From Akkermansia muciniphila (GTDB lineage Bacteria > Verrucomicrobiota > Verrucomicrobiia > Limisphaerales > BJHT01), in NCBI GenBank assembly GCA_945861535.1, contig CAMAUZ010000049.1, positions 1 through 55,879 on the forward strand: a stretch of 55,879 bases of DNA, given 5' to 3'. A program made the position numbers and the translations under genes. Shown here one piece after another: positions 32,859 to 35,783 of the stretch. The notes under the pieces were generated by a model. That model searched no databases. It saw only the letters and a program-made list of their open reading frames with translations, and was not told the DNA's origin. Each line of letters starts with the position of its first letter. Within the stretch, counting starts at the first letter, position 1.

Positions 32859-32881
32859 TCGCCGCGGCCGGAGAGGTTCAC
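32859..32881 (-). repeat. 23-bp copy of trpB 3' coding sequence abutting hicA
   Basis: These 23 bases match the part of trpB that encodes VNLSGRG (34620-34642). The TGA of hicA is formed within the matching sequence. The downstream bases diverge from trpB after this point. Confidence 0.7.
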
Positions 32882-33090
32882 AGCAACCTCCGAAATTCAT
32901 CTGGTGTCAGCCCGGCGTCGCGGGCAATCGCACCCATCGTGAAAGGGTCAACTGGGTTGGCGCGCGGGATGACGAGCCGGATGGCGCCGTTGGACATGAC
33001 GATGTGACCGCTTTGCCGGATGATGCGGTAGCCCAGCTTCTCAAAAACGCGCAATGCGTCTTGGTGACGGATGCCGGGTAGCCGGGGCAT
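32878..33090 (-). CDS. hicA: HicA-type toxin (mRNA interferase)
   Basis: This 70-residue protein has the HicA dsRNA-binding-like fold, with GIRHQDALRVFEKLGYRIIRQSGHIVM, where the histidine of SGH is the family's catalytic residue. It ends in GLTPDEFRRLL, which is also typical. HicA toxins cleave mRNA and are held inactive by HicB. It follows hicB by 3 bases, the reverse of the commoner hicA-hicB order but known in many systems. The stop codon lies within the short trpB-derived repeat at 32859-32881. Confidence 0.9.
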   Translation of the reverse strand: MPRLPGIRHQDALRVFEKLGYRIIRQSGHIVMSNGAIRLVIPRANPVDPFTMGAIARDAGLTPDEFRRLL

Positions 33091-33093
33091 GGG

Positions 33094-33291
33094 TCAAATG
33101 GCTACTTCAACTTCACTGACCTTGAAGAGCTTGGCCTCGTCCGCTTCTGCCGCCAGCCATTCGCGAATGGCTTCCTTAATGTTGGTCAATGCTTCTTCGC
33201 GCGTCTTGCCCTGTGAATGGCAGCCGCGGAGGCTCGGACAACTCACCGAAACGCCGTCCTCGTGTTCAATCACTGTGACTCGGTAATTCAT
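33094..33291 (-). CDS. hicB: HicB-type antitoxin
   Basis: This 65-residue HicB-like protein begins MNYRVTVIEHEDGVSVSCPSL and continues GCHSQGKTREEALTNIKEAI, the partially degraded RNase-H fold of HicB. No DNA-binding domain follows, so repression of the operon may be weak or need another factor. It is the first gene of the hicB-hicA pair and starts 56 bases after the stop of the downstream Uma2 copy. Confidence 0.9.
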   Translation of the reverse strand: MNYRVTVIEHEDGVSVSCPSLRGCHSQGKTREEALTNIKEAIREWLAAEADEAKLFKVSEVEVAI

Positions 33292-33347
33292 GGTTCAAAA
33301 GTATTTCTGCCGAGGGAGCAAAGCAACTTCACAGCGCCCGGAAGGGT

Positions 33348-33908
33348 TCAGCGTTTCAGCAGTTCACCCACATTCACCACGGCGTCGGGAAATGCCAGTG
33401 GCGCGGCTTGGTCGCCGGGGTGCAGCACGGTCTTGGATCTGTAGCCGGTGAAGTGTGGCTCACGGTAGATTTCCACTGTGAGTTCGTTCAGGTTTACAAT
33501 CCACACTTCCGGCACGTCCGTGCGACCATACGCGGGAAGCTTGTTTTCCTGATCCGCCTCGAGCGTGGAGTCGGAAACTTCGATGAGGAGGAAGACATCC
33601 GCGGGCTGTGGGTGCCGACTCGTGTAATCGTCCGGCGCGGGCTTGAGCAACATCACGTCCGGTTCCGGCTCGGAGTGATCATCCAAACGCACCGGGTCTT
33701 GGGTGGAAACAATCCAGCGGCCTTTGGCTTTGAGATTGAAAATACGGCTCAAGCGTTTGACCAAGCCGCCGTGAAAGGGACCGATGGGTGACATATCAAT
33801 GATCCTTCCGTCGATAAGTTCCACCCGCGCATCGGGACGCAACACACCGGTCTCCGCCATGCGGTAGTAATCCTTTACGCTGAAACGATGTTCGGTTTGG
33901 AGCAGCAT
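33348..33908 (-). CDS. Uma2 family (DUF820) PD-(D/E)XK nuclease-like protein, copy B
   Basis: This 186-residue protein has the Uma2 pattern: FSVKDYYRMAETGVLRPDARVELIDGRI, the acidic residues of SEPEPDVMLLKP and FLLIEVSDST, and YGRTDVPEVWIVNLNELTVEIY. These form a PD-(D/E)XK-like active site (E/D plus E-V-S). The biological role of Uma2 proteins is not established. The first roughly 47 residues differ from copy A at one position and the DNA there is about 95% identical, while the rest is much more diverged. It is preceded by a 74-base copy of the trpB 3' end. Confidence 0.9.
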   Translation of the reverse strand: MLLQTEHRFSVKDYYRMAETGVLRPDARVELIDGRIIDMSPIGPFHGGLVKRLSRIFNLKAKGRWIVSTQDPVRLDDHSEPEPDVMLLKPAPDDYTSRHPQPADVFLLIEVSDSTLEADQENKLPAYGRTDVPEVWIVNLNELTVEIYREPHFTGYRSKTVLHPGDQAAPLAFPDAVVNVGELLKR

Positions 33909-33925
33909 GGACTGAGTTTAGCGGT

Positions 33926-33999
33926 TCACTGCGACATTTCTAAGTTCACTTTGGCAGCCACCTGCGACACGTCTTTGTCGCCGCGGCCGGAGAGGTTCA
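33926..33999 (-). pseudogene. Detached copy of the trpB 3' end
   Basis: Read on the minus strand this gives [23 protein letters not shown]-stop in two pieces, against [23 protein letters not shown]-stop in trpB. Positions 33957-33999 are identical to 34600-34642 over 43 bases. It begins exactly at the TGA of Uma2 copy A and ends 17 bases before the start of Uma2 copy B, the same relation that the real trpB end has to copy A. Confidence 0.9.
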
Positions 34000-34551
34000 G
34001 CGCATTAACAATTCCGCCACGTCCACCGCGACATCGGGGAATGCTTGCGGCGTGGCTTTGTCACCCGCGCGCAAAACGGTTTTCGCGCCATAGCCGGTGA
34101 AATGCGGCTCGCGATAGACTTCAACGATCAGTTCGTTGAGATTTACAATCCACGCCTCGGGCACACCCGCGCGGCCATAGGCAGGGAGTTTGTCTTCCTG
34201 GTCAGTTGCCAGGCTGGTGTCGGATATCTCAATCAGGAGATAAACCTCCTCCGGTCGGGGATGACGCTTGCGGTAGGAGATCGGCTTGGCCAGAACCAAA
34301 TCTGGTTGTGGTTCAGACTGGTCGTCCAGCCGCAAGGAATTTTGCACGCGCGTCCGCCACCGGCCATTGGATGCCGCCGTGAAAACCTCGTTGAGATAAT
34401 CGGTGACGTCTCCGTGAAACGGTCCAATGGGTGACATATCAATGATCCTTCCGTCGATAAGTTCCACCCGCGCGTCGGGACGCAGCACACCGGTCTCCGC
34501 CATGCGGTAGTAATCCTTTACACTGAAACGATGTTGGGTCTGGAGCAGCAT
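33997..34551 (-). CDS. Uma2 family (DUF820) PD-(D/E)XK nuclease-like protein, copy A
   Basis: This 184-residue protein has the same architecture as copy B: VELIDGRIIDMSPIGPFHG, QSEPQPDLVLAKP, VYLLIEISDTSL and YGRAGVPEAWIVNLNELIVEVY. The putative metal-binding acids (D in PDLVL, E in LLIEIS) are kept. It starts 17 bases after the trpB stop, so read-through from trpB is likely. Its stop codon is the first codon of the trpB-derived segment 33926-33999. The pair looks like a tandem duplication followed by divergence of the 3' two-thirds. Confidence 0.9.
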   Translation of the reverse strand: MLLQTQHRFSVKDYYRMAETGVLRPDARVELIDGRIIDMSPIGPFHGDVTDYLNEVFTAASNGRWRTRVQNSLRLDDQSEPQPDLVLAKPISYRKRHPRPEEVYLLIEISDTSLATDQEDKLPAYGRAGVPEAWIVNLNELIVEVYREPHFTGYGAKTVLRAGDKATPQAFPDVAVDVAELLMR

Positions 34552-34568
34552 GGGGGGAATTTAGCCGG

Positions 34569-35783
34569 TCACTTCGGCAATTCCAACTTCACCTTCGCCG
34601 CCACCTGCGACACGTCTTTGTCGCCGCGGCCGGAGAGGTTCACGATGATGAGCTGGTCTTTGGACATTTTCGGGGCCTGCTTCATGACTTCGGCGACGGC
34701 GTGGGCGGATTCGAGCGCGGGGATGATGCCTTCGAGGCGCGCGAGTTTCATGAAGGCGTCGAGGGCTTCGGTGTCGGTGGCGTAGGCGTATTGCACGCGG
34801 CCCTGGTCGTTGAGCCAGGCGTGCTCGGGTCCGACGGCGGCGTAATCGAGGCCGGCGCTGACGCTGTGGGTGGCCTGAATCTGGCCGAATTCATCCTGCA
34901 AAATATAGCTGCGCGTGCCCTGCAGAACGCCGAGCGAACCGCCGTGAAAACGCGCGGCGTGTTTCTCGGGGAGGATGCCTTCGCCGCCGGCCTCGACGCC
35001 GATCATGCGGACGGAGGTGTCGTTGAGGAACGGATAGAACAAGCCGATTGCGTTGGAGCCGCCGCCGACGCAGGCGAGCAGCAGGTCGGGGAGACGCTCT
35101 TCTTGTTCGAGAATTTGGCGGCGCGCTTCGTCGCCAATGACGCGCTGGAAATTGCGGACCATGACGGGGTAGGGATGCGCGCCGTACGCGGTGCCGAGGA
35201 TGTAGTGCGTGCTGCGGACGTTGGTGACCCAGTCGCGCATGGCTTCGTTGACGGCTTCCTTGAGGGTCTTCTGGCCGGCGGTGACGGGCACGACTTTCGC
35301 GCCGAGCATTTTCATGCGGAAGACATTCAGCGCCTGGCGCTCGCAGTCCACGGCGCCCATGTAGATGACGCATTCGAGGCCGAACATGGCGGAGACGGTG
35401 GCGGTGGCGACGCCGTGCTGGCCCGCGCCGGTCTCGGCGATGATGCGGGTTTTGCCCATGCGCTTGGCGAGGAGGATCTGCCCGAGGGCGTTGTTGATTT
35501 TGTGCGCGCCGGTGTGGAGCAGGTCTTCGCGTTTAAGATAAATCTTCGCGCCGCCGAGGTGCTGCGTGAGGCGCTCGGCGTGGTAGAGCGGCGTGGGGCG
35601 GCCGCAGAATTCGCGGAGGTAGTAATCGAGTTCGCGCTGGAATTCCGGGTCGTGCTGCGCGCGGAAATATTCGGCCTCCAACTCCTGCAACGGGTGCATG
35701 AGAGTCTCGGGGACATAGCGTCCGCCGTAGGGGCCGAAGTGGCCGTGGGCATCGGGGATAGTGGGGCTGGTGAGGGTGCTCAT
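34569..35783 (-). CDS. trpB: Tryptophan synthase beta chain
   Basis: This 404-residue PLP enzyme joins indole and serine to make tryptophan in complex with TrpA. The catalytic lysine K95 lies in [28 protein letters not shown], the phosphate loop [12 protein letters not shown] and the C-terminal [10 protein letters not shown] are all present, and the length is usual. trpF lies upstream on the same strand, 325 bases away, which is unusual spacing for an operon because the gap holds a 30-bp inverted repeat and heptads. No trpA is in the window. The final 74 bases of the gene have partial copies further downstream. Confidence 0.97.

Follow-up and report, generated by a model that had tools for sequence, protein, structure and literature searches.

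The 3' end of trpB, the gene for the tryptophan synthase beta chain, appears to have been entered repeatedly by small selfish modules in a bacterium catalogued as Akkermansia muciniphila (GTDB order Limisphaerales) and its relatives. The modules encode the PD-(D/E)XK nuclease-like protein Uma2, the toxin-antitoxin pair HicBA or, once and away from trpB, a ParE-like toxin. The best explanation of the whole, which we hold to be reasonably probable, is that the modules are borne by recombination, stack at the trpB end, and are kept there by addiction or by self-spread. The case comes from the window, by which we mean the whole analysed stretch of 55,879 nt (contig CAMAUZ010000049.1 of assembly GCA_945861535.1, hereafter contig C49 of genome G000, 7.9 Mb), where the minus strand carries in succession trpB, Uma2-A, a displaced trpB tail T2, Uma2-B, a shortened tail T3, HicB, HicA, and an old tail T4.

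In trpB (34569..35783; Pfam PALP, E 3.1e-43) the last 74 nt, T1, occupy 34569-34642. Uma2-A (33997..34551; Pfam Uma2, PF05685, E 7.5e-31, 107.4 bits) is the first module after it, followed by Uma2-B (33348..33908; E 5.5e-34, 117.6 bits; cut-off 27). The HicB antitoxin (33094..33291; Pfam HicB_lk_antitox, E 3.2e-08) and the HicA toxin (32878..33090; Pfam HicA_toxin, E 2.2e-06, 28.1 bits, cut-off 27) are adjacent, have the same orientation, and both exceed the Pfam cut-off, as expected of a predicted type II toxin-antitoxin module.

The first-pass annotation of this DNA had described serial copies of the trpB end. Letter-by-letter comparison confirmed its 43-nt exact recurrence (34600-34642 and 33957-33999), and its 23-nt exact match at 32859-32881 was borne out as well. 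However, the true copies are longer: T2 covers 74 nt (33926..33999; 66 of 74 identical to T1, stop included) and lies inside a 231-nt direct repeat (90%) extending into Uma2, and the 23-nt match is merely the start of T4 (32819..32880), a complete 62-nt trpB C-terminus of a different type, NLSGRGETNAAKAAARITL with its own stop, now displaced and decayed. T4 has the short type of ending, T1 and T2 the long one; the same-length tails nearest to T4 among those compared are in G218 (46/62) and G012 (45/62, ending in ERITL before the stop). The diverged version reported behind Uma2-B resembles a tail that has lost an internal piece, TGAACCCTTCCGGGCGC..TGTGAA, and T3 (about 33328..33350) is a probable tail remnant, by eye and by comparison with the left border of HicBA in G112 and G109. 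The copies were rightly said to begin at the stop of an accessory gene: T2, T3 (by eye), and T4 each start at the TGA of the preceding gene, a consequence of the TGA that trpB itself has, out of frame, in gTGAACctc. The tail core is not scattered over the genome, since a 22-nt core with at most 3 mismatches occurs at four sites in the 7.9 Mb, three exact, all at this locus, and one with 3 mismatches on contig C61.

Two origins had been proposed for this layout, repeated insertion at one trpB site with the gene end regenerated each time, and serial tandem duplication. The former is supported by empty-site relatives and by varied module sets. The empty site of G231 matches the displaced tail and following DNA of G109, which carries HicBA, at 463 of 542 positions (85.4%), versus only 301 of 500 for the attached tail and HicBA; the empty site of G208 matches the displaced tail and downstream DNA of G105, which carries Uma2, at 520 of 704 (73.9%). 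Both alignments are collinear from the junction TGA through the stop into the downstream DNA. Therefore the modules of these genomes entered inside trpB, the displaced tail being the original end with its original neighbour, and the two tested pairs show a module lying within the old gene, between a complete replacement end joined to trpB and the displaced original one. The third comparison of this kind, of G204 with G207, did not give such an alignment and is discussed below. In G218, the attached tail ends in KIKL and the displaced copy in KVKLEMPK, each before a stop, and the other 29 of the 30 g42 genomes read have the long ending; this shows an exchange of the trpB end.

Modules of different kinds hold the trpB site singly or jointly, depending on the genome, and such mixed arrays were therefore not made by tandem duplication. 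A serial duplication of the trpB end together with its module, followed by divergence and deletion, would account for alike neighbours, such as the adjacent Uma2 genes u1 and u2 of G068 (82.5% DNA identity) and Uma2-A and Uma2-B of the window, identical at 95-97% over their first ~140 nt. But the arrays mixing Uma2 and HicBA, the collinear empty sites in two pairs, and the dissimilarity of the two window Uma2 genes, of which Uma2-B has diverged less from its G233 counterpart (synonymous divergence, pS, 0.49) than from Uma2-A (0.59), make this history very improbable, although tandem duplication may still explain single homotypic pairs. Past the first ~140 nt the identity of Uma2-A and Uma2-B falls to 45-77% in 60-nt windows, and we read this sharp break as a sign of recombination between modules.

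The trpB gene was found in 57 of 58 genomes, G000 counted, and among the loci read Uma2, a Uma2 remnant, or HicBA directly follows it in G001, G010, G023, G026, and G028, with tails intact or decayed. A first flank test on relatives, where shuffled flanks scored at most 14.5, gave 62 and 19 for the trpB-tail repeats of G001 and G026, and 0 for the decayed remnant of G023 and for the Uma2 of G028. Modules were located with Uma2 and HicA queries, and their detection is thus biased to those families; the search for the trpB-tail pattern alone is unbiased. Across the order, this pattern matched in 267 of 320 genomes, at least twice in 22. In 13 genomes (G000, G026, G068, G070, G102, G105, G109, G112, G207, G216, G218, G232, and G233) the tails stand in tandem, that is on one contig and one strand within 4 kb; the other nine multi-match genomes have them on different contigs. 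The 13 span five family labels (f1, f15, f26, f42, and f60), which rise to eight on a looser reading that admits G010, G023, and G028. Uma2 (G000, G026, G068, G070, G102, G105, G112, and G233) or HicBA (G000, G102, G109, G112, G207, G216, and G218) is present in 12 of the 13; in G232 no module was recognised in the stretch read. Beyond the order, among 387 genomes of the phylum, including G000 and one order member, no close same-strand tail pair was found among the matches listed, and close tandem tails occurred in none of the 16 multi-hit phylum genomes that were re-run.

The most elaborate array, in G112, reads trpB, HicBA, tail, an HNH gene, a second HicBA (its HicB below the Pfam cut-off), another gene, tail, Uma2, tail. 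The ParE-like toxin is that of G110, its stop fused to a full trpB tail; no trpB lies in the stretch fetched. Throughout the 22 module-bearing genomes compared, trpB is in frame through the attached tail to the stop. The exception, outside that set, is G068, where the trpB match at locus L244 stops after residue 253, yet the tail and two Uma2 genes follow; a frameshift in the gene or the assembly is possible. In G102 (L247, about 2320-2790) the HicA of the second module seems, by eye, to be interrupted by a piece resembling the C-terminus of a group II intron maturase. The long ending of trpB had also been considered as an extension, LQMPK, acquired from a Uma2 promoter; this idea was dropped, as genomes that lack modules often have the long ending too (66 of 94 genomes have the long type). 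A scan for a promoter overlapping the trpB end, suspected by eye, found none, and a trpB protein tree proved too unstable for dating the insertions.

The junctions are of one kind to a large extent, as 19 tail copies after a module gene start exactly at the TGA stop of that gene: three in the window (T3 by eye), two each in G068, G070, and G112, and one each in G001, G010, G026, G102, G105, G109, G110, G207, G216, and G233. A TGA stands at the junction position of trpB in 17 of 22 module-bearing versus 44 of 72 module-free genomes. The exactness of the junction in these copies and the stacked order could also be produced by a trans-acting site-specific recombinase of the integron or tyrosine-recombinase kind, for which the trpB tail would serve as attachment site. 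Integron integrases above cut-off were present in 5 of 13 genomes searched, each of which carries copies or remnants of the trpB tail, with fragments in others. Yet such an enzyme is, in our estimate, most unlikely. For the two tails examined, folding on either strand was no better than that of most shuffles (z -0.94, -0.61, 1.13, and 1.10). G000 itself has no integron integrase above cut-off: its 12 TIGR02249 matches are weak, the best below cut-off, and none lies on C49 among the 11 matches listed. Moreover, G218 uses a different TGA, about 42 nt upstream of the usual one, which speaks for a shared TGA over a fixed recombinase site, and at other target genes the junctions do not share a single sequence. 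An integron cassette array proper was likewise rejected, as neither of the two tails tested had an attC-like fold and no linked intI was seen in G000.

In the mechanism that we propose, a module would arrive on DNA already bearing a trpB end. One side would be joined by homologous recombination in the highly conserved trpB sequence, and at the first entry the other side would be closed by an illegitimate join, usually at the TGA common to the module stop and trpB, that is by homology-facilitated illegitimate recombination. Later arrivals would settle next to trpB and shove the earlier ones downstream, and a module lying between two trpB ends could thereafter move among genomes by ordinary homologous recombination. 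Since the 74-nt direct repeats should permit deletion, the survivors would be modules that punish their loss, such as toxin-antitoxin pairs, or that spread by themselves, as perhaps Uma2 does. Such a product should have a long homology on one side and a microhomology on the other: 19 junctions do lie at a shared TGA, but five other copies deviate and the non-trpB cases are without it.

Sequence divergence bears on the transfer of modules. G000 and G001 belong to the same genus and have differing module sets; their trpB genes have pS 0.15 and their Uma2 genes 0.47. Because the Uma2 value is far above that of trpB and the modules differ, the Uma2 part was probably exchanged since the two genomes parted. 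The case for a transfer of HicBA is less strong, although the amino-acid identity of HicA across families is 91-94%. Among the five HicA proteins at no less than 90%, the window's included, four are at trpB and one, in G241, is elsewhere; the HicBA of G241, away from trpB, retains AAGTGAACTTGATTT, the letters found at the left border of the trpB HicBA modules. A higher DNA identity of HicBA than of trpB was considered as proof of transfer and dropped, as their synonymous divergence is about equal. Uma2 evolves under constraint, with a nonsynonymous-to-synonymous ratio (dN/dS) of 0.10-0.25 in 8 pairs. Residues D84, E108, and K121, chosen as candidate catalytic residues from the Uma2 family motif, are kept in 19 of 19 trpB-linked copies, one of which (G023) has an in-frame stop.

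Several observations weigh against modules stacking by recombination at the trpB end. In five cases the copy or remnant behind a module gene begins elsewhere than at the TGA of that gene: G218 uses another TGA, those in G028, L156, and L142 are partial, and that in G023 is decayed and follows a TAA. Orphan tails without a recognised module exist in G068 (contig C452) and G232, and the third tail of G112 likewise follows no recognised module gene. At the ftsY, moxR, DUF4129, 4Fe-4S, and metallophosphoesterase genes described below, the copies begin 2 to 30 nt past the stop. In the comparison of G204 with G207, there is no alignment of the downstream DNA adjacent to the tail (630/1001), and it is the attached tail of G207 that resembles the native one (71/74 relative to G204, a count made by eye) and the far tail that is foreign, the reverse of what the simple scheme predicts; ordinary replacement by a whole donor segment appears to fit G207 better. 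The pS of HicBA, 0.38-0.54 against 0.40-0.50 for trpB in six pairs, is not clearly lower, and HicBA may have travelled along with trpB, or may have been inherited and lost many times. Finally, no recombination event or circle was observed, and the stacking scheme is drawn from sequences of the metagenome-assembled type.

The layout is not special to trpB, as similar arrangements stand at other genes. Flank tests covered the matches listed, at most 30 per search, and the Uma2 test omitted 8 of 38 Uma2 matches and the two genes of the window; for HicBA-1 the scores were judged by the random-placement control. Flanking repeats scoring at least 20 were found at 10 of 30 loci for HicBA-1, 12 of 30 for HicBA-2, and 4 of 42 for Uma2, namely G001 (at trpB), L134, and L133 and L120, whose repeats have no gene assignment; G026, also at trpB, scored 19. 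In the controls 13 of 2000 random placements reached this score, every one of them in an array-bearing locus, and none of 78 other open reading frames (ORFs) did. The end of moxR is copied at L377 (65/68), L383 (61/68), L381 (40/51), and L329, and L383 is an array of moxR, a DUF2442 gene, moxR tail, HicBA, and moxR tail. In addition, the copied end belongs to an ftsY-like gene at L134 (65/77; Pfam SRP54), to a gene for a 4Fe-4S protein at L397 (90/92), and to one for a metallophosphoesterase at L376 (25/26).

A scan of named genomes in which five Uma2 proteins from trpB loci served as queries yielded 79 loci, of which L187 and L188 did not enter the flank test and L164 is without a stop. Repeats scoring at least 15 flank 7 of the 29 testable loci from Verrucomicrobia (L135-L163, assigned by title or member name except for L149, whose title is 'bacterium' alone) versus 1 of 47 from other groups. 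Six of the seven are trpB tails (L135, which is the G001 locus, L139, L141, L143, L144, and L156), and the seventh, L148, is a copy of a DUF4129 gene end (180/223), so that Uma2 accompanies copied ends at this gene as well as at the ftsY-like one. The sole locus of another group, L169 (Candidatus Thermoflexus), has a 24/25 repeat between the DNA before the Uma2 gene and the gene's own end; it perhaps reflects tandem Uma2 paralogs and offers no nameable gene-end case. As far as their sequences tell, the moxR, ftsY-like, DUF4129, and other layouts are similar to that of trpB.

A mirror form exists in L395 (G069) and L400 (G015), where the repeats on both sides of HicBA are copies of the start, the 5' end, of a hisC-like aminotransferase gene, with the intact gene downstream in L400. 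Not every flanking repeat is a gene end, as L312, L314, L320, and L403 illustrate. In the first three (G211, G203, and G222), HicBA lies between a shared non-trpB direct repeat, GCTCATGCCGCAGAC..GTGTAAAATGGTTTGCG (38/41, 53/58, and 87/91), possibly another carrier element. By eye, the start of a TIR-domain-like gene comes straight after HicBA in L327, L324, and L330 (G047, G088, and G144), and that gene seems to contain the flanking repeat in the case of L327; HicBA of L332 (G055) is flanked by copies (46/56) resembling, also by eye, the reversed start of an ABC permease gene. In the window, repeats of other kinds surround the trpB region: an imperfect long inverted repeat, AAAACCACTAACCGGCACTAA...TTAGTGCCGGTTAGTGGTTTT, at 32690-32790 just past T4, which resembles a short palindromic mobile repeat; an inverted repeat of the ACCACAGAGACACGATGAACACAGAGA type at 35945-36080, upstream of trpB; and a 58-nt direct repeat (79%) whose two copies, at 31505-31562 and 35790-35847, bracket the region.

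The trpB arrays share features with several known systems. Some prophages and islands, for example e14 in icd, insert at the 3' end of a gene and rebuild that end. The trpB modules likewise regenerate the 3' end of the gene, but they are without an integrase, measure about 0.5-0.65 kb, and consist of one or two genes. Integron cassettes are small additions beside a fixed gene, newest first, with a common repeat after each ORF and with toxin-antitoxin cassettes among them. In these features the trpB arrays resemble them, whereas the repeat here is the end of a protein-coding gene, with no attC-like fold in two tails and no linked integrase seen. The type VI secretion system (T6SS) effector-immunity modules of Vibrio cholerae (PMC5361080) have a conserved upstream anchor, the newest module adjoining it, and old pieces downstream, and homology-facilitated illegitimate recombination has been proposed for them. 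Their anchor, however, is in a secretion locus, and old immunity genes are kept, while here the anchor is a housekeeping biosynthetic gene whose complete end is regenerated.

The closest anatomy is that of fungal mitochondrial mORF elements (PMC3630166), which bring foreign C-termini to atp6 of Allomyces and to atp6, atp9, cox2, and nad3 of Glomus. As at trpB, a conserved gene receives a replacement C-terminus, a nuclease ORF (at trpB a predicted one) follows, the native C-terminus is displaced, and several genes serve as targets. At trpB the replacement end is fused in frame, and the native end is displaced in two of the three aligned pairs and in G218, not in G207. The fungal elements encode LAGLIDADG or GIY-YIG proteins, in contrast to the predicted nuclease Uma2 on a bacterial chromosome; stacking arrays and toxin-antitoxin modules at the same site are features of the present case. 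This likeness raises the possibility that Uma2 is a homing nuclease, which would cut uninvaded trpB ends and be copied with the invaded allele during repair, the carried end keeping the gene and toxin-antitoxin modules hitchhiking. Uma2 is indeed a predicted PD-(D/E)XK nuclease and has also been called 'a likely solo toxin' (PMC2701414), its candidate catalytic residues are kept throughout, and it occurs with copied ends at other genes. Nevertheless, homing seems unlikely to us: near the junction the attached tail hardly differs from the displaced one, so that insertion would leave any cut site there intact, and HicBA, which encodes no such nuclease, occupies the same site without Uma2 in G109, G207, G216, and G218.

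Among the titles and opening lines of abstracts retrieved from the open-licence PMC literature we found no description of Uma2 or HicBA/toxin-antitoxin modules anchored in the ends of housekeeping genes. The trpB arrays may tentatively be taken as one example of a general class, integrase-free modules of one or two selfish genes that travel on conserved housekeeping 3' ends (trpB, moxR, ftsY, and others), exchange the end of the host protein when they arrive, and form stacks ordered in time, with Uma2 driving homing and toxin-antitoxin pairs keeping the stacks, though such a class is rather doubtful at present. If modules stack by recombination at the trpB end, the leftover ends let one read how selfish genes arrived, one after another, in a gene of core metabolism, and the C-terminus of a biosynthetic enzyme would have been swapped by its parasites. 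By the same simple process, toxin-antitoxin pairs and Uma2 genes could spread with neither transposase nor integrase. Uma2 is a large family whose function is so far predicted, and both mechanism and function would be directly testable here.

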